The translations under genes were made by a program, and so were the position numbers. From Spirochaetaceae bacterium (GTDB taxonomy: Bacteria > Spirochaetota > Spirochaetia > Treponematales > Rectinemataceae), in the NCBI GenBank assembly GCA_025355995.1, contig JANXYQ010000126.1:1-35670 (forward strand): a stretch of 35,670 nucleotides of DNA. Direction: 5' to 3'. A model generated the notes under the pieces. The model worked only from the letters and a program-made list of their open reading frames with translations, had not been told where the DNA came from and did not search any database. Shown here one piece after another: positions 23,111 to 32,803 of the stretch (position 1 is the first letter of the stretch; every line of letters begins with the position of its first letter).

Positions 23111-24361
23111 ATGGCGACTAACCTGAAGCGGATCGAGAAGGAGTTCATCCTAGGCTCTGCGAGGGACGATAAGATTCCCTTCCTGCTCATAGCCGGCTCG
23201 GGCGAGTGGCCCTGCCTCATCACGTCGATGACGGCCGACGGCATCGCCTTCTCCCACGCGATGCCCCTGCGGCTGCTAAGGCGCAGCCAGATCTACGAGT
23301 TCCGCTTCATCTACCGGGAACAGCCCATGGCATTCCGGGCGAGGATCCTCGAGGTCAAGGAATCGAGCGTCGTCACGGAGCTTCCCGAGGCGGTCTACAA
23401 GAACCTGGGCCGCCGCTACAGCCGCCGCGCGCCGCCGACCGAGCTCGGCGTGTCGTTTTCCTTCAAGGGCGACCGCTACGAGCTCTCCTTCCCGACCACG
23501 AGGGAATTCGAGCCCGTCGTCGAGCCCGAGCTCGACTCCGCCTTCGATCCCCACGACATCCGCGCCCTCGTGCGCGAGTTCAACGAGCGCGCCTCGGAAT
23601 TCGCCTCGGAACGGGCCCTGCGGATGTTCAAGGATAGGCGGCCGGAGACCCAAGAGGAACGGCTCATTGTCCGCACGGGCAAGATCTACTTCCTGCCGAC
23701 CTCCGTCGGCGGATTGCCCACGGCGGATCCCTACGTCTCCCCCAGGATAGTGACCCGCGACGTGTTCGCCGAATTCTTGCGCTATGAGGAAGTCCGGGAG
23801 GATCTCGTGGCGGACGAGGTCCTCCGCTTCGAGCGGAACAAGAAAGCCTCCGGCATACTCTCCGAGCTCATGGTGCCCCTGCTCTTCCAGGAGTACGTGA
23901 TCGGCTACGTCTACCTGGTGAATACCCAGGCGGGGAAGCCGCCCTTCGACCTGCCCGTCCTCGAGACCTTCCACCAGTTCGCGAAGGTCCTCGCCTACTC
24001 GCTGAAGGTCAACGGCTACTTCCGCAACGCGCCGAAGAAACCGCGCGATTTCGCCGCCGACGTCATCGACATAAGCGCGGGCGGCCTGCTGTTCTCGAAC
24101 TCCTCCCGCGACCTCTCCACCTCCCTCCTTCCCGGCAGCGACATGGAGCTCTCGATAAAGGCCAAGGGCAGGACCGTCAAGGCCCTCGCCTCCGTCAAGC
24201 GGGTATACAGGGACGCCTCGCGGAGCTATTTCGGCGTGGAGTACGCGGAGGTATCGCCCGAGGACTTCCGCTTCCTCTTCGAGTGCCTCTACGGCCGAGG
24301 CTTCACCGACGAGGACGCCGTGGGCATAGAGGGCCTCGGCCCCAAAGCCTCCCAGAAATAG
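23111..24361 (+). CDS. PilZ-type protein with a GAF-like insert
   Basis: The product has 416 residues. Residues ~1-95 resemble the YcgR-type N-domain found in front of PilZ (FLLIAGSGEWPCLITSM, YEFRFIYREQPMAFRARI). Then comes an Arg cluster RRYSRRAPP (about 101-109) that fits the RxxxR c-di-GMP motif. The second PilZ motif, DISAGG (320-325), comes only ~215 residues later, followed by the closing strands (KALASVKRVYRDASRSYFGV). The segment between includes LMVPLLFQEYVIGYVYLVN and PVLETFHQFAKVLAYSL, a GAF-like ending. So it looks like a split or doubled PilZ. It is 20 bp from the lipoprotein gene, with GAGGAAAAA before the ATG. Confidence 0.75.
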   Translation: MATNLKRIEKEFILGSARDDKIPFLLIAGSGEWPCLITSMTADGIAFSHAMPLRLLRRSQIYEFRFIYREQPMAFRARILEVKESSVVTELPEAVYKNLGRRYSRRAPPTELGVSFSFKGDRYELSFPTTREFEPVVEPELDSAFDPHDIRALVREFNERASEFASERALRMFKDRRPETQEERLIVRTGKIYFLPTSVGGLPTADPYVSPRIVTRDVFAEFLRYEEVREDLVADEVLRFERNKKASGILSELMVPLLFQEYVIGYVYLVNTQAGKPPFDLPVLETFHQFAKVLAYSLKVNGYFRNAPKKPRDFAADVIDISAGGLLFSNSSRDLSTSLLPGSDMELSIKAKGRTVKALASVKRVYRDASRSYFGVEYAEVSPEDFRFLFECLYGRGFTDEDAVGIEGLGPKASQK

Positions 24362-25824: not shown

Positions 25825-26382
25825 CTATTTCTCGCTTTCGACCTTCACTCCGCGCCTCTTCTTCGGGAAGCGCTTGAGCATGGCGACGACGTTGCGCTTG
25901 GAGTTGAATACGAAGCCGCCGTCCCAGTACTCGAGCGCCGCGAAGAGGGCGTTGCCTCCGTCGTTGTCGTCCGCGCGCTCGCCCCGGAAACTGACGTACT
26001 CGGCGAGGGCCTCGAAATCGTTGCCCTCGAGGAGGACCTGCCGCTTGCGGTTGAACTCGTTCCACTTCTCGAGGTCCTGGAAGCCGGGGCCCTCGTCCTC
26101 GACGATGAGGTGGGCGTGCTCGGGGCTGAAGTCGTACCAGACCCTCACCTTCTTCTCGGGGTCGCACTTGTTGCCGTGCTTGACCGCGTTCTTGATCACC
26201 TCGCTGATCTGCTGCTCGAGGAGGTTGATCTCCTTAATGTCCGGAGGCGCGGACTGGACGATGAGCAGGGTGAAATAGCGGATCTGCCGGAAGTCGGAGG
26301 GGAATTCCTTGTGGAGCATGCCCGTCTTCTCGAAGAGGGGGGAATTCTCGTTTACCTGGATGTCCTTGGCGGCCGGGGCCAT
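25825..26382 (-). CDS. RsbW-like anti-sigma-factor kinase (GHKL ATPase)
   Basis: RsbW-type proteins hold a target (usually a sigma factor) and phosphorylate the STAS antagonist. The product has 185 residues. The ATP-binding N box is EVIKNAVKHGNK, and the G1 box is VEDEGPGF. The following segment is longer than in Bacillus RsbW (EGNDFEALAEYVSFRGERAD), and the G2-like end reads GGNALFAALEYWDGGFVF, less canonical than GxGL. It starts 1 bp after the STAS stop, third in the module. No sigma factor gene lies nearby, so the target is encoded elsewhere or is not a sigma factor. Confidence 0.87.
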   Translation of the reverse strand: MAPAAKDIQVNENSPLFEKTGMLHKEFPSDFRQIRYFTLLIVQSAPPDIKEINLLEQQISEVIKNAVKHGNKCDPEKKVRVWYDFSPEHAHLIVEDEGPGFQDLEKWNEFNRKRQVLLEGNDFEALAEYVSFRGERADDNDGGNALFAALEYWDGGFVFNSKRNVVAMLKRFPKKRRGVKVESEK

Positions 26383-26383
26383 G

Positions 26384-26722
26384 CTACGCCTCCATCCGCT
26401 TGAGCGCGTCGTCGATCGTCGGCGTGATGGGGAAATAGCCCATGAGCTTGGTGAGCTCTATGACCTTCTTCACCGAGCCGTGGATATTCGTGATCACCAG
26501 CTTGAAGCCCATCTTCTTGATGGTCGAGCAGATGTAGATGAGGGCGCCGATACCGCTCGAGTCGATATAGTCGACGTTCTCGAGATTGATGATGAAGCGC
26601 TCGACCTTCTTTTCAAGCATCTTCATCACGAGTTCCTTGAGCTTGTACGAGTTGTACAAGTCCATCTCGCCGTTGACGTCGATGATGTAGCTCTCGCCGT
26701 TCTTGCGGATCTTTAAGTCCAT
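26384..26722 (-). CDS. STAS-domain anti-sigma-factor antagonist (RsbV/SpoIIAA-like)
   Basis: The product has 112 residues, a single STAS domain. The phosphorylation site is in DYIDSSGIGALIYI; by analogy with SpoIIAA, Ser56 (the second Ser) is the residue phosphorylated by the kinase and dephosphorylated by the PP2C protein. The Met start MDLKIRKNGESYIIDVNGEM is family-typical. It lies 19 bp after the phosphatase gene and 1 bp before the kinase gene, so all three partners are made from one message. Confidence 0.94.
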   Translation of the reverse strand: MDLKIRKNGESYIIDVNGEMDLYNSYKLKELVMKMLEKKVERFIINLENVDYIDSSGIGALIYICSTIKKMGFKLVITNIHGSVKKVIELTKLMGYFPITPTIDDALKRMEA

Positions 26723-26741: not shown

Positions 26742-28682
26742 TCATGCCTTGGATCTCTTCATTACCAGTACTGTCCTATCGTCGTGCGGGCGAGTCTGCC
26801 CCGCGAAGCCGAGGAGGTCTTCCTCTATCCTCGACGCGATCTGGCTCGGGCTCGAGGCCCGCGCGCGCTGGACTACGGCGCCGAGGTTCTTGCGCCCGTA
26901 TTGCTTTCCCTGCGGGTTCATCGTCTCGACGATCCCGTCGGTATAGAGCACGAGTATGTCGCCCTCGCCGAGGGCGAAGCGCGTGGAGCCGTAGACAGTG
27001 CCGCGCTCGACGCCGATGGGAACGCTCTTCGCCTCGACCGTCTCGAGGTTCCCGTCCGCCGCGCGGCAGATGAAGGCCGGCTGGTGGCCCGCATTGGCCA
27101 GCTCGACCGCACCGGATGCGGAGTCGACGGCGGCGAGGCACAGCGTCGCGTAGTGGTCGAGGTCCACCTTGCCGGTGATGCCGCGGTTGACCCACTGCAG
27201 GAGCGTGGCGGCGTCCTTGGTGGACGCGGTGATGAGCTGGAGTATGGACCGCACCATGACGAGCACGATGCTCGCGGCGACGCCCTTGCCGGCCACGTCC
27301 CCGACGGCGACGACGGCCTTGTCGCCCTTGGTGGGGATCACGTCGTAGTAGTCGGAGCAGACTCCGCGCGCCGAGCTTGCGAAGACACCGAAGGCTATCC
27401 CGCGGACCTCGGGGAGCTTCTTGGGGACGAGGTTGGCCTGGACGTCCGCGGCGATGTCCGCCTCCCGCTCGATGTCGCTGCGCTCGGCCGCCTCGAGGAA
27501 GGAGAAGGAATTGGCGACGGCGATGGAGCCGAAGTTCGCGAGGAGCTTGCAGCGGTCGAAGTCGCGCTCCGAGAAGCTTCCCTCGCCGGTCTTGACGACC
27601 GACACCGCGCCGATGATCCTGTCGCGGACGATGAGGGGCGACGCGATGAAGGCTCCGGACTTCAGCCAGGCCTCGTCGCCGTTGTCCGGCAACGGGGAAT
27701 CGGGGCCGGCTTGGGGAACGAAGACATGCTTGCCGGTCCTCGATACCTCGCCGAGGATTCCCTCGCCGAGCTTGAAGCGCGCGTGGCGGACGAAGGACAC
27801 GACGCGATCCTGGGTCTTGGGCAGGTTCTCGGGTAGCTTGAAGGGGGGCGGATAGGCGCCGCAGATGGCCCTTATCGAGACCGTCTCCTCGAATTCGTCG
27901 GCGAGGAGGAGGGCGCCGCCGTCGGCTCCCGTGCGGTCCACGACGGTGCGGATCATGTTGTCTACGACGTCCTGGAGGAAGGTCTCGCTCCGCATCGCGG
28001 TGCCGGTGGATAGGAGGAGGTCATAGAGAGAGTCTACCGACTCCTCGTAGTAGTCGACCGCGCTGACCAGTTGCCCCTGGATTATGTCGACGAAGATGAG
28101 GGCGACCGCGAAGAGGAGGCCGTAGAACGCGGGCTCGACGAGCAGGAGGAAAAGCGGCTGGCCGGTGCCGAGGAGGAAGCCGGCGACGACGTAAACGGTC
28201 GAGCCGACGGTCAGGGGCAGCCAGGTTTTTAGCGAGAGGCTGCGGGCCGTCGTGTCGGCCTGGGCCCGGAAGAGCAGGGGGAGGAGGAGGAGGCCGAGGA
28301 TCGGTACGAGGGCGGCGAGCCGGAGCAGGTCGGCGCCTAGGCCCAGGTCCAAGCCGGAGGCCTCGAGAACCAAGGCGATGAAGGCGACGAGGCCTAGGCC
28401 CTCGATTGTCCAGAAGGGCCAGCCCAGCCGGAAGGGCTTGATGCAGATGAAGAGGAGGAGGCCGAAAAAAACGAGATCGCCCGCCCCGAATAACGCCGGA
28501 TTTGGCAGGAAGGCGGAAACGACGTCGCGGAGGGCGAGAAAGCCGGAGACGAGGGCGTAGCCCGTCATCGCGCCCTCGGTATCCTTCTTTCGCAAGAAGA
28601 GGAATACCTCGATCAGGACTGCCGCGAGGACGAGCTTGGCGAGCAGAGGACCGCCCAGCACCTTGATTATGCTATCCCACAC
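26742..28682 (-). CDS. Membrane-bound GAF-PP2C (SpoIIE/RsbU-type) serine phosphatase
   Basis: The product has 646 residues. Roughly the first 205 form seven hydrophobic segments. A helical linker leads to a GAF domain (about 225-395; GADGGALLLADEF, GAFIASPLIVRDRIIGAVSV), then a second linker and the PPM phosphatase domain (about 430-646) with the metal-binding motifs VCSDYYDV, VAVGDVAGKGVAASI, LYTDGIVETMN and HDDRTVLVM. It should dephosphorylate the STAS protein in response to a membrane or small-ligand signal. The start is GTG (VWDSIIKV read as Met) with AAGAGGA about 9 nt upstream. It is the first gene of the partner-switching unit. Confidence 0.92.
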   Translation of the reverse strand: MWDSIIKVLGGPLLAKLVLAAVLIEVFLFLRKKDTEGAMTGYALVSGFLALRDVVSAFLPNPALFGAGDLVFFGLLLFICIKPFRLGWPFWTIEGLGLVAFIALVLEASGLDLGLGADLLRLAALVPILGLLLLPLLFRAQADTTARSLSLKTWLPLTVGSTVYVVAGFLLGTGQPLFLLLVEPAFYGLLFAVALIFVDIIQGQLVSAVDYYEESVDSLYDLLLSTGTAMRSETFLQDVVDNMIRTVVDRTGADGGALLLADEFEETVSIRAICGAYPPPFKLPENLPKTQDRVVSFVRHARFKLGEGILGEVSRTGKHVFVPQAGPDSPLPDNGDEAWLKSGAFIASPLIVRDRIIGAVSVVKTGEGSFSERDFDRCKLLANFGSIAVANSFSFLEAAERSDIEREADIAADVQANLVPKKLPEVRGIAFGVFASSARGVCSDYYDVIPTKGDKAVVAVGDVAGKGVAASIVLVMVRSILQLITASTKDAATLLQWVNRGITGKVDLDHYATLCLAAVDSASGAVELANAGHQPAFICRAADGNLETVEAKSVPIGVERGTVYGSTRFALGEGDILVLYTDGIVETMNPQGKQYGRKNLGAVVQRARASSPSQIASRIEEDLLGFAGQTRPHDDRTVLVMKRSKA

Positions 28683-28722: not shown

Positions 28723-28750
28723 TTGCCTGCCTGGATGGCCAGTGTAGCAT
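28723..28750 (+). promoter_or_regulatory. Possible promoter for the TPR/STAND-like gene, overlapping the opposite one
   Basis: TTGCCT (4 of 6), 16 nt, TAGCAT (4 of 6) on the plus strand. It overlaps the minus-strand -10 box, so the two would compete for polymerase. Both elements are weak matches. Confidence 0.25.
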
Positions 28751-28769
28751 TCACGATACCCGGAGTCAA
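28741..28769 (-). promoter_or_regulatory. Sigma70-like promoter of the partner-switching operon
   Basis: On the minus strand TTGACT (5 of 6), exactly 17 nt, TACACT (4 of 6). Transcription would begin near 28733, giving a leader of about 50 nt with the AAGAGGA ribosome site of the GTG-started phosphatase gene. Confidence 0.65.
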
Positions 28770-28797: not shown

Positions 28798-31700
28798 ATG
28801 GTGACAATTGTATCGATAGGCCTCATTTCGGAGGGGGATCCCGTGATCGGACTCTTCATGAAGATACCATTCCACTCCCAGCTCCGCGCCGCCGAGCCAC
28901 GGCTCGCGGCCGAGCTGGCGGGAGCGGTGGAGGAGGTCGTATCGGCCTTCGCCGCGACGAGGCAGGCCACGGAGGAGTCCTTCCTCCTCACCTTCGACGA
29001 GAATTCGAGGCCCTGCAGGCTTCGCGCGGCCGAAGCGGCGCGAGCCCTGGCCCAGAAACTGTCCGGAATCGGTCCGAGGCTCCACGGCTGGTCCCTCCTC
29101 CTGGACTCGGGAGCGGCGGACGCCGAGGATTCGCTGCGCGCGGTCAAGCGACTTTGGTTCGGGATCCAAGCCGACGGATTCTACATTTCCCCGCGCTCGA
29201 AATCCATTTTCGCCGATTATTTCCTCTTCGGAACCACCGGCGCCGATGCGGAGGGCAGGGGCTGCATCCCCGTCCTCGACTCGGTATACGCGCGCCCCGC
29301 CCTCCCCCCTTGCGGACCCGCCGACGAGGCGCTGGAGGAGGCCTCTTCCCAGGCCATCGACCGCCTCGTCGACGCCCTGGGGGAAATCGGTGTCGCCCAG
29401 AATTCAGACCAGGCCCTGGCCGTGCTCGGGCCGGGAAGGGGCCCTTCCCTCTGCATAGACGCGGCGCTTTCTAAGCTCTATCCCGATTCTCTCGAGCGCT
29501 TCCTGCGCCTCTCCGCCTCCGCGGTGGAGAGCGCGCCTTACGGCCCCGTCGCGAGCGCCTTCGCCGCCTTGGTCTCGCCCAAGAAGGGAGTCTCGGGCCC
29601 CGGATCCCTCCTCTCGGGCGCGGAGCGTGGCCTCCTCGAGGAACTCGCTCCCATGCTCGATTTCTTGCAGAGGTCGCCGTATCGGAGCGGGTACTCGGCG
29701 CAGATCGGGGTGCGGCTTCGCCTCTGCACCGCCGCCGCCCTGAGGTTCTACGCGAGGGAGATGCGATCGAGCGGCCTCCCCGCCTTCGTCCTGCTCGAAC
29801 GCGTAGATCGCTTCCCCGAACCGAGCCTCGAGCTGATCCTCAGCCTGGTAGCCGAGAACCTTTCCGGGGAGGGCCTCGCCATCCTCGCGGCGGGATCCGA
29901 GCTGCCGCGCTATTGGGCGGGCGCGGCCCCCCGGACATTGGAGGCCCCGGGGCCCAGTCCCTCGGCCATCGCCCAGGCCGCCCTGCGCTACGCCGAGGAG
30001 CTTCGGGCTCCCGGCGGGGCGGCGACGCTCGCCCTGGCGGCCGCCGGCGATCCCCTCCGGCTCAAGCTCGCGGTACGCCTCCTCGCCTGCGACCGAGGCT
30101 TCTCGCCCGCCGCCTCGACCGAGACCCTCGCCGCGCGGGCCCTCGAGACCTTCCCGCGCGAATTTCCGGAGCTGCTCCTCGCCCTGCGCCTGGGCGAGGA
30201 GACCCTGACGGACGAGTCGATGGAGAGTTTCCTCCGCGACATCGGCTACGTGGCGGGAGTCCGCTCGCCCGTATACGGAAGCCTCGCGGCGCTCGGCTAC
30301 ATTACGCGCGGAGAGCGTCCGCGAATAGCCGCTCCCGTCGCCGCGAGCGTTCCCGAGCAGGTACTGCCCGACGGGGGAGCCGCCTTGCGCGGCGACTTCG
30401 CGGCGCGGCTCCTCCACCTCAGGGAGCAGGGCCGCATCATCCCCTCGGGCGCCCTCTACAGGCGGATGCTCGCGGATTCCAAGGACCTCCTCCGGGGAGA
30501 GGCCGGGAGCAGCGCCCTCGCGATGGACTGTATCTCGGCCGACGCGGTCTACGGTCCCTCCGAACCGCCCGGATCCGGGGTCCTGGAGACGCCCCTCGCT
30601 CCGATGGCCGATTTCCTCCGTGCCAGCTCGATCCCCGACCGGGACAGGAGCCTCGCCGCCCTCGAGGCCCTCGAAACCTCTTCAGCAAGGCTCGGGGACG
30701 GCGGCGAGCTCGCCTCCGCGGTGACGGCCCTCGCGAGGGCGGCCTTCGACTACGCCGAGGGAAGGGCCCAGGTCGCCGCCTCCCGCGCGAAGAAATCCCT
30801 GATGCGCCTCCACGCGCTCGGCGCGAGGAAGGTCGAGGCCAAGGCGCATCGGATCCTAGGCCTCTGCTCGCTCGCCCAAGAGCAGGTTCAGGAGGGCGCC
30901 GACTACCTCGGGAACGCCTACGAAATCGCGGCGGGGATCCCCGAGCCCCTCGAATGCATATTGGCCGCGACCGCGGAAGCCGCCGCCGCCTTCGCCCTCG
31001 GCGACCTGGGGAGGGTCAGTTCGAGGGCGGACGCCGCGGCCGACTGGGCCGCCTCCTCCTTCCGCGCGGACTGGGAGTCCGCCTGCGCTTTCATCAAGGG
31101 CCGGGCCGCGCTCGAGATAGGCCGCTGCGAGGAGGCGGAGGCGAATTTCGGCCGGGTCCGCACGGTCGCGCGCGTGTATGGCCAGGCGGAAGCCTCGAGG
31201 AGGGCGGAGATATGGACGGGGCGTGCCGCCTCCTTCGCGGGCGAGTCCATGAGGGCGAGGGAGATGCTCAGGCGGTTCGGCGACGACGCCGAGGCGCTGT
31301 GGTTCCTCGCCGAGCTGGAGGCCTGGGAAGGCGCCCCGCGCGAGGCGGTAGCCCTGGCGGACGAAGCCCTCTCGATAGCGCCTCCGACAGCCTTCTTCCC
31401 CGCCGAAGCCTTCGACTGGGGCTCGGGTTTCGCATCGCTGGAGGGGCGGGCGGTCGGGTTTTTCGGGAAGCGCAGCTATCTCAGGGACCAGGTCGAGGCC
31501 TTCAGGGAATTCGCCGCGGGCATGGCCGACCCCGAGGGCTCCGGCCTCGCCTGCGCGGCCAGGCTCGCCGCCCTCGCCAGGGAGGATCGCCTCTCCGCCC
31601 TCCACCCCGCCGCCCACCTCTATCTCTTCTACCGCTACCTCATCCTCGAGCGAGTGACGCCGAGCTCGATGGACGGGGCGACAGCGCTCAGCAAGGCCTT

Positions 31701-31821
31701 CAAGGCGCTGCAGATGAGGTCCACTCGGATGGGAGAGGCCTCGCTCAAGGACGGGTTCCTGGGAGCGAACCGCTGGAACAAGGCCCTCATCGACGCGGCG
31801 CGCTCGCGGAAGCTCATTTGA
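28798..31821 (+). CDS. Large TPR protein with a degenerate STAND-type ATPase-like core
   Basis: About 1007 residues, no signal peptide. By layout it recalls STAND regulators (N-domain, NTPase, winged helix, TPR). The core shows LGPGRGPSLCIDAAL (~210-224) at the P-loop place but with Pro for the catalytic Lys, APYGPVASAFAAL, and AFVLLERVDRFPEPSLELI (~329-347) where Walker B would be, Glu-Arg instead of Asp-Asp. The last ~350 residues are Ala-rich helical repeats of TPR type (KVEAKAHRILGLCSLAQEQV...EADALFLF-like). N-terminal ~150 residues: unknown. Start uncertain: ATG chosen; a GTG 45 bp on has GGAGGGGG 5 nt upstream; a TTG 75 bp earlier is open. Diverges from the partner-switching operon. A pseudo-ATPase scaffold is inference. 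Confidence 0.7.
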   Translation: MVTIVSIGLISEGDPVIGLFMKIPFHSQLRAAEPRLAAELAGAVEEVVSAFAATRQATEESFLLTFDENSRPCRLRAAEAARALAQKLSGIGPRLHGWSLLLDSGAADAEDSLRAVKRLWFGIQADGFYISPRSKSIFADYFLFGTTGADAEGRGCIPVLDSVYARPALPPCGPADEALEEASSQAIDRLVDALGEIGVAQNSDQALAVLGPGRGPSLCIDAALSKLYPDSLERFLRLSASAVESAPYGPVASAFAALVSPKKGVSGPGSLLSGAERGLLEELAPMLDFLQRSPYRSGYSAQIGVRLRLCTAAALRFYAREMRSSGLPAFVLLERVDRFPEPSLELILSLVAENLSGEGLAILAAGSELPRYWAGAAPRTLEAPGPSPSAIAQAALRYAEELRAPGGAATLALAAAGDPLRLKLAVRLLACDRGFSPAASTETLAARALETFPREFPELLLALRLGEETLTDESMESFLRDIGYVAGVRSPVYGSLAALGYITRGERPRIAAPVAASVPEQVLPDGGAALRGDFAARLLHLREQGRIIPSGALYRRMLADSKDLLRGEAGSSALAMDCISADAVYGPSEPPGSGVLETPLAPMADFLRASSIPDRDRSLAALEALETSSARLGDGGELASAVTALARAAFDYAEGRAQVAASRAKKSLMRLHALGARKVEAKAHRILGLCSLAQEQVQEGADYLGNAYEIAAGIPEPLECILAATAEAAAAFALGDLGRVSSRADAAADWAASSFRADWESACAFIKGRAALEIGRCEEAEANFGRVRTVARVYGQAEASRRAEIWTGRAASFAGESMRAREMLRRFGDDAEALWFLAELEAWEGAPREAVALADEALSIAPPTAFFPAEAFDWGSGFASLEGRAVGFFGKRSYLRDQVEAFREFAAGMADPEGSGLACAARLAALAREDRLSALHPAAHLYLFYRYLILERVTPSSMDGATALSKAFKALQMRSTRMGEASLKDGFLGANRWNKALIDAARSRKLI

Positions 31822-31822
31822 C

Positions 31823-32803
31823 TTGACCGCCCCCGGCCAGGGCGCCCATACTCCCGCCGTGCGAGAGCTGGATGCCGCCTGTTACCACGCCGCGAGGGGC
31901 TTCCTCTCTCTCCTTCTCGACGAATTGCCCGAGCGAGACCGCGTCGACGGCGAGCTCGTCACGGTGCTCGGCTCGGCGCGCGCGGCGCTGACCGGGAAGC
32001 CGCGACCCTACTGGACCCGTAACGTCTGGGAAAAGCCCCTGCTCGTGGAATTCGCCTCGGTCGGCGAGGCGGCGAAGGCCCTGCGCTCGATCCAGAGGAA
32101 TTGGGCCTACCTCCCCTCGCGCCTCCACCGCCGCGCTGCCCTCATCGCGGACAAGCTGCCGCCCCTCCCCTCCAAGCCCAAGGCCTTCCCCTTCGTTCCG
32201 CCTAACGTTCCCATGGGCGCCTTCACCCTCCTCGACGAGAACACCATGCTCGCCAGCCCGCTCTGCTCGAGCCCCTTCCCCAACGGGGAGTTCGAGTTCG
32301 AGGAGGACAGGGAGGGGCCGCCCAGCCGCGCCTACCGCAAGCTTTGGGAGGCGCTCGTCGTGGCGGGCGCACACCCGGCCGCGGGGGAGAAGTGCGTCGA
32401 CGCGGGCGCGTCGCCCGGGGGCTGGACCTGGGCCCTCGCGCGCCTCGGGGCCGATGTCCTCGCGATCGACCGGGCGGACTTGGAGCCGCGCGTCGCGGAG
32501 CTGTCCAACGTCCGTACGATGCGCCACGACGCCTTCACGCTTAAGCCGCGAGACCTGGGCCGCGTCGACTGGCTGTGCTCGGACGTAATCTGCTACCCTC
32601 CTGCGCTCTTCGAGTGGGTATCCTCCTGGCTCGAGTCCGGGCTCGCGCGGAATTTCATCTGCACGATAAAAATGCAGGGAGCGGGCTTCGACAAGGCCAC
32701 GACCGATCGCTTCGCCTCGATCCCGGGCTCCAGGATAGTCCACCTCTGGCACAACCGCCACGAGCTTACGTGGATAAACCTTGGCAAGGACCGCACGGCC
32801 TGA
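31823..32803 (+). CDS. RlmM-like 2'-O-ribose methyltransferase (FtsJ/RrmJ fold)
   Basis: About 326 residues. The C-terminal half is an FtsJ-type SAM methyltransferase: Lys in SRAYRKLWEAL, the SAM loop CVDAGASPGGWTWALARLGA, VLAIDRADL, Asp in WLCSDVICYPP, Lys in ICTIKMQGAG and Glu in HNRHELTWI make up the K-D-K-E catalytic tetrad. Order and overall style fit RlmM (C2498 of 23S rRNA), but the N-terminal ~150 residues are divergent. The TTG start lies 1 bp after the upstream stop; a GTG 36 bp further (VRELDAACYH) is equally possible, neither having a good ribosome site. It is likely co-transcribed with the TPR gene. Confidence 0.85.
   Translation: MTAPGQGAHTPAVRELDAACYHAARGFLSLLLDELPERDRVDGELVTVLGSARAALTGKPRPYWTRNVWEKPLLVEFASVGEAAKALRSIQRNWAYLPSRLHRRAALIADKLPPLPSKPKAFPFVPPNVPMGAFTLLDENTMLASPLCSSPFPNGEFEFEEDREGPPSRAYRKLWEALVVAGAHPAAGEKCVDAGASPGGWTWALARLGADVLAIDRADLEPRVAELSNVRTMRHDAFTLKPRDLGRVDWLCSDVICYPPALFEWVSSWLESGLARNFICTIKMQGAGFDKATTDRFASIPGSRIVHLWHNRHELTWINLGKDRTA

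Follow-up and report, generated by a model that had tools for sequence, protein, structure and literature searches.

A probable double pseudo-enzyme on the soluble adenylyl cyclase plan, often encoded opposite a partner-switching operon in Spirochaetia

The window analysed here (the whole stretch of 35,670 nucleotides from a Spirochaetaceae bacterium) contains a large gene with a ruined P-loop, divergent to an operon of partner-switching type, and raises the question of what this protein is and whether it belongs with its neighbours. A sequence-only reading had taken it for a STAND-like TPR protein, perhaps a pseudo-ATPase scaffold acting as a sensor or client of the operon. To that reading the present analysis adds a cyclase identity, a class-wide spread and a tie to flagella.

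Open frame and domain architecture

The frame at 28798-31821 on the forward strand is genuinely open, as had been read, but its start is very probably GTG 28843 rather than 28798, because orthologues begin at the same column (M-I-x-x-x-x-x-I...Q) and GGAGGGG lies just upstream. The features of the locus are collected in Table 1.

Table 1. Features of the locus, with positions in the window and residue numbers of the 992-residue form (GTG 28843)
Feature	Position	Strand	Basis
DUF1577-like/PilZ protein, recurrent member of the block	23111..24361	+	domain matches, locus comparison
GHKL anti-sigma-type kinase	25825..26382	-	domain matches
STAS anti-anti-sigma protein, identity with the proteins of relatives 80-98%	26384..26722	-	sequence comparison
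Membrane-GAF-PP2C (SpoIIE) phosphatase, divergent neighbour	26742..28682	-	domain matches
Promoter of the phosphatase operon, sigma-70-type, TTGACT-17-TACACT, extended -10, conserved in relatives	28741..28769	-	sequence
Probable pseudo cyclase-STAND-TPR protein, 992 aa, very probable GTG start	28843..31821	+	AlphaFold2 model, mean pLDDT 91.4, pTM 0.88
Class III nucleotidyl-cyclase-like domain, residues 1-150, metal-binding aspartates unconserved	28843..29292	+	Foldseek, VIA-align, residue counts
Degenerate STAND/AAA_16-type NTPase core, residues 151-370	29293..29952	+	hhalign against AAA_16 paralogues; AAA_16 in orthologues; 6mfv
Ruined Walker A GPGRGPS, residues 196-202, Pro at the Lys position	29428..29448	+	profile alignment, residue counts
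Walker B place LLERVDRF, residues 317-324, Glu at the Asp position	29791..29814	+	profile alignment, residue counts
Helical / putative winged-helix part, residues 371-510	29953..30372	+	secondary structure of model, profile alignment
TPR superhelix, residues about 511-890	30373..31512	+	model; VIA-align to Rap proteins and MalT domain III
C-terminal family signature LSxAFKxLQxRxxRI..FLExNxWNRxL..AARxxKLI	31513..31818	+	most constrained part, dN/dS about 0.14
RlmM-like FtsJ methyltransferase gene, probable operon with the scaffold gene	31823..32803	+	abuts or overlaps the scaffold end in relatives

Pfam and NCBIfam named weak TPR matches alone for the window protein, phmmer found no relative in the PDB, and the only matches of a family profile search were TPR proteins. 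The full-length AlphaFold2 model, which was built with 32 sequences, had as its best Foldseek match 6mfv (E 4.5e-10), the structure of a STAND protein whose sensor is made of TPRs, followed by TPR proteins (1.5e-5). By VIA-align the TPR part resembles Rap regulators and domain III of MalT (Z 27-29); the full model gave almost solely TPR chains by this method and was therefore uninformative on the NTPase part. With AAA_16 above its cut-off in the orthologue L041 (41.2 against 32.6 bits) and 6mfv at the top of the Foldseek matches, the STAND-type core and TPR sensor read from the sequence are borne out.

The N-domain, previously taken as the first part of a STAND order, had been overlooked as a cyclase fold. 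Residues 1-152 folded separately gave a model with pLDDT 92.4, for which Foldseek returned 84 matches at E<=0.001; all 50 of those listed are class III cyclases, among them Rv1625c (E 4.5e-6). VIA-align superposed the same model on Rv1625c (4p2f) with Z 15.0 and 2.6 A over 147 residues, and on human soluble adenylyl cyclase (sAC) with Z 14.4. Judged from its model, the N-domain is thus a class III cyclase homology domain, which would make the whole protein a degenerate sAC-like protein.

Paralogues in the same genomes have about 1000-1140 residues, a PF00211 match, an AAA_16 match above cut-off and P-loops of GDAGIGKT type; L217 is such an intact-P-loop cyclase-AAA_16-TPR protein in the window's own genome, and its type recurs in relatives, apparently uncharacterised. 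The family profile aligns collinearly with these paralogues over 829 columns (98.8%), and a profile of the NTPase part from 25 orthologues does so with the AAA_16 paralogues over 295 columns (83%), as compared with 0.3% for unrelated control profiles; the cyclase part by itself gave 52% (E 1.4e-4, the E-values being those of single comparisons). The ancestor of the window protein was a class III cyclase, STAND NTPase and TPR sensor in one chain, with the architecture of sAC, and it is highly probable that what remains is a doubly degenerate form in which both sites have been lost.

The two nucleotide sites and selection on the family

Because the paralogues in the collinear NTPase alignment possess a GDAGIGKT P-loop and a Walker B with VDN, the GPGRGPS place is no chance motif. 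The alignment puts Pro201 and Ser202 on the Walker A Lys and Thr and Glu319 on the Walker B Asp, in a P-loop one residue shorter than in the intact paralogues, and so confirms both substitutions. Loss of the consensus extends to the whole family, with GxxxxGK[ST] in none of 54 distinct members. Proline occupies the Lys position in 8 of the 10 members from family f1, and GPGxxP is a new motif common in the window's family; the Treponema members have the loop region nearly deleted. The window sequence contains GDPL, a candidate for the GxP motif, in a stretch gapped in the profile alignment. A search for a second intact P-loop gave three [GA]xxxxGK[ST] strings outside the core, in outgroup frames, which were set aside as chance: two are A-led and one lies in an untrimmed upstream stretch.

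The core might nevertheless bind nucleotide without the canonical Lys and work as a slow or one-shot STAND switch. GxxxxGK is kept in seven members, followed by Glu, Lys, Ala or Arg, and those that keep GK (GPAGTGKE, GEMGMGKR) may bind nucleotide; Glu is also common at the Walker B Asp position (20/54, with Asp in 10/54). Against such a switch stand the absence of the GK[ST] consensus from all 54, the proline and shortened loop of f1 and the near-deletion in Treponema, and we regard it as very unlikely.

The cyclase domain is similarly altered. Its first metal position is hydrophobic, Thr or Ala in 54 of 54 distinct members and never Asp, Met6 occupying it in the window protein according to the paralogue alignment extrapolated by one short step, and at the second position Asp is unconserved in the same set. 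PF00211 was absent from the families listed for 32 members at E 0.1; intact paralogues match it at 74-85 bits. With its metal aspartates lost, the domain is probably catalytically dead.

Class III cyclases act as dimers, and human sAC pairs two unlike domains (PMC12802110). This precedent, the cyclase fold of the N-domain and the 14 PF00211 matches in the window's genome would all suit a protein that is the regulatory half of an active class III cyclase, the dead domain pairing with it like a pseudo-C2 and the TPR part tuning cAMP or cGMP. We consider this arrangement improbable, as a cyclase gene beside the scaffold gene was seen in none of the loci examined, and f1 genomes lacking the protein still have PF00211 proteins, if fewer (1-3).

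A single-sequence search found an orthologue in 33 of 59 close relatives, and a 32-member profile matched 95 of 149 genomes of the order (the weakest being short TPR matches and not orthologues) and 107 of 296 of the class; in a phylum-wide sample all matches lay inside the class Spirochaetia. The gene is usually single-copy, and the C-terminal motif is the best-conserved part of the family. Values of dN/dS against a congener, from N to C terminus, were 0.31, 0.29, 0.30, 0.29 and 0.14, indicating purifying selection on every domain. On these ratios and the open frames of relatives we reject a pseudogene, and by the evidence of the sequences we are dealing with a maintained pseudo-enzyme and not with a decaying gene.

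In T. pallidum the orthologue lies at 143139-145565, within which fall the coordinates of TP0123 (PMC2408589), a protein named “hypothetical protein containing TPR domains” (PMC2217670). TP0123 differs from the window protein in having 809 residues, a nearly deleted loop region and a position away from the partner-switching module. The literature on TP0123 and on dead cyclase-TPR proteins yielded no functional work.

Linkage to the partner-switching operon and to flagella

The gene is divergent to a SpoIIE-STAS-kinase operon in 21 of 21 loci from families f1, f2 and f4, a few of them cut by contig ends. Divergent linkage was also seen in 30 of 80 GTDB loci found through the STAS protein, a set that overlaps the 21, including the distant L124, L127, L131 and L140. 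The Winmispira-like genomes (f6) show a related arrangement, in which a second kinase, PilZ and STAS face the gene without SpoIIE (three genomes). The STAS protein is under unusually strong constraint, with 80-98% identity across three families where the scaffold protein has 18-68%.

Between phosphatase and scaffold, seven relatives have two additional genes, for a second GHKL kinase and a PilZ protein, which read in the direction of the operon. L035, L036, L037, L040, L041, L042, L050 and L173 have the second kinase and small PilZ gene in the operon facing the scaffold; in the window's genome a diverged relative sits elsewhere (G000:C95).

The linkage is not obligatory. It is absent from the f3 (Treponema) and f5 loci; T. 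pallidum has the protein but no first kinase, and the opposite combination, first kinase present and protein missing, occurs in several Treponema. The shared divergent control region that had been proposed found no support: a conserved promoter belongs to the phosphatase operon alone, the inverted repeat sought in the divergent gap was not found, and the gap is filled by two genes in the seven relatives. On the last two grounds a shared operator there was rejected.

Downstream the gene is packed against an RlmM-like gene, with -33 to +90 bp from stop to start in the measured f1 and f4 loci, a closer link than that to the divergent operon, and it may on this account belong to another process. 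A role in RNA modification or translation alongside this methyltransferase nevertheless seems quite doubtful to us, since neither f3 nor f5 nor the class-level outgroups were found to have the methyltransferase beside the gene, and the kinase/STAS link reappears in f6. The RlmM-like protein itself scores 78 bits against an RlmM cut-off of 176.

Both f1 and f4 retain the whole block of PilZ416, kinase, STAS, phosphatase, scaffold, methyltransferase and UvrD. The DUF1577-like/PilZ gene adjoins the block even in the distant L179, L181 and L182, with no phosphatase operon seen there. Conservation of so large a block, together with the loss of linkage in f3 and f5, would be expected if the neighbourhood were inherited synteny without functional meaning and the protein served an unrelated housekeeping process. 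We judge this rather unlikely, for f6 shows the kinase-STAS linkage again, at class depth and among different flanking genes, and the second kinase lies directly opposite the gene in 10 of the 15 genomes examined that have it. Overall we regard the linkage as real and old but non-exclusive.

Across the class the gene is nearly restricted to flagellated genomes: it occurs in 104 of 203 FliG-positive and in 3 of 93 FliG-negative genomes, the three being fragmented assemblies, with FliG only in 99 and neither in 90, counts that come from genomes not independent of one another. All 19 FliG-negative genomes among the 59 relatives, which belong to f1, lack both the gene and the first kinase. About half of the FliG-positive genomes are without the protein, and flagella occur without the gene in f7 and most of f3. 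Within the T. denticola group (L060, L061, L233, L237) the gene directly follows fliG-fliH-fliI-fliJ on the same strand, and is itself followed on that strand by a glycosyl hydrolase family 3 gene.

Proposed role and comparison with known systems

Since key residues of both nucleotide sites are lost and yet selection keeps the protein, it is probably a protein-binding scaffold and no enzyme; on sequence grounds we consider a scaffold likely in preference to a cryptic enzyme. The TPR superhelix and the highly conserved C-terminal motif would form the binding site, for a protein or for a small ligand. Dimerisation or docking surfaces would come from the dead cyclase and NTPase domains, and binding would be passed on without an ATP-driven switch. 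The likeliest clients would be the adjacent GHKL kinases, the STAS protein, the PP2C phosphatase, or a flagellar or motility programme that the module may serve. A maintained pseudo-enzyme sensor scaffold, perhaps for partner switching and/or motility, is the explanation that we favour overall, with some reserve, and the choice of partner switching or motility as its client is more tentative, at somewhat below even chances. In a fuller version, put forward as a speculation that we think unlikely, periplasmic flagella would be controlled by a module of partner switching and c-di-GMP (PilZ) with the dead sAC-like protein as its sensory scaffold; if true, an sAC-like scaffold over partner switching, PilZ and periplasmic flagella would be a signalling design undescribed so far.

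A large uncharacterised protein that occurs in many flagellated spirochaetes, TP0123 of T. pallidum included, thereby acquires a fold-level identity as a probable double pseudo-enzyme on the sAC plan, with anti-sigma kinases, a STAS protein and the flagellar programme as candidate partners. The divergent operon matches the PP2C, STAS and GHKL parts of RsbU/RsbV/RsbW and SpoIIE/AA/AB, whereas the scaffold protein corresponds to none of their components, and we know of no classical partner-switching system with a TPR-STAND pseudo-enzyme component. With STAND proteins of the MalT and 6mfv type it has in common an NTPase core, a helical and putatively winged-helix part and a TPR sensor; it differs from them in lacking the Walker A consensus, in having Glu for the Walker B Asp and a dead cyclase domain in front, and in that no DNA-binding domain was seen. 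Soluble adenylyl cyclase (ADCY10/sAC) and the bacterial cyclase-AAA_16-TPR proteins such as L217 have the same order of cyclase, P-loop NTPase and long repeat sensor, although sAC has two cyclase domains to the one of the window protein, and the latter is without the metal aspartates and P-loop consensus of these proteins. In full-length sAC the P-loop region gave no nucleotide regulation (PMC12802110). For the design as a whole a precedent, likened by description, is BcsE (PMC7439463), a signalling scaffold that joins a RecA-like ATPase domain with a diverged Walker A to a dead domain of nucleotide-cyclase type, and which differs from the window protein in that its degenerate tandem is REC-GGDEF and binds c-di-GMP.
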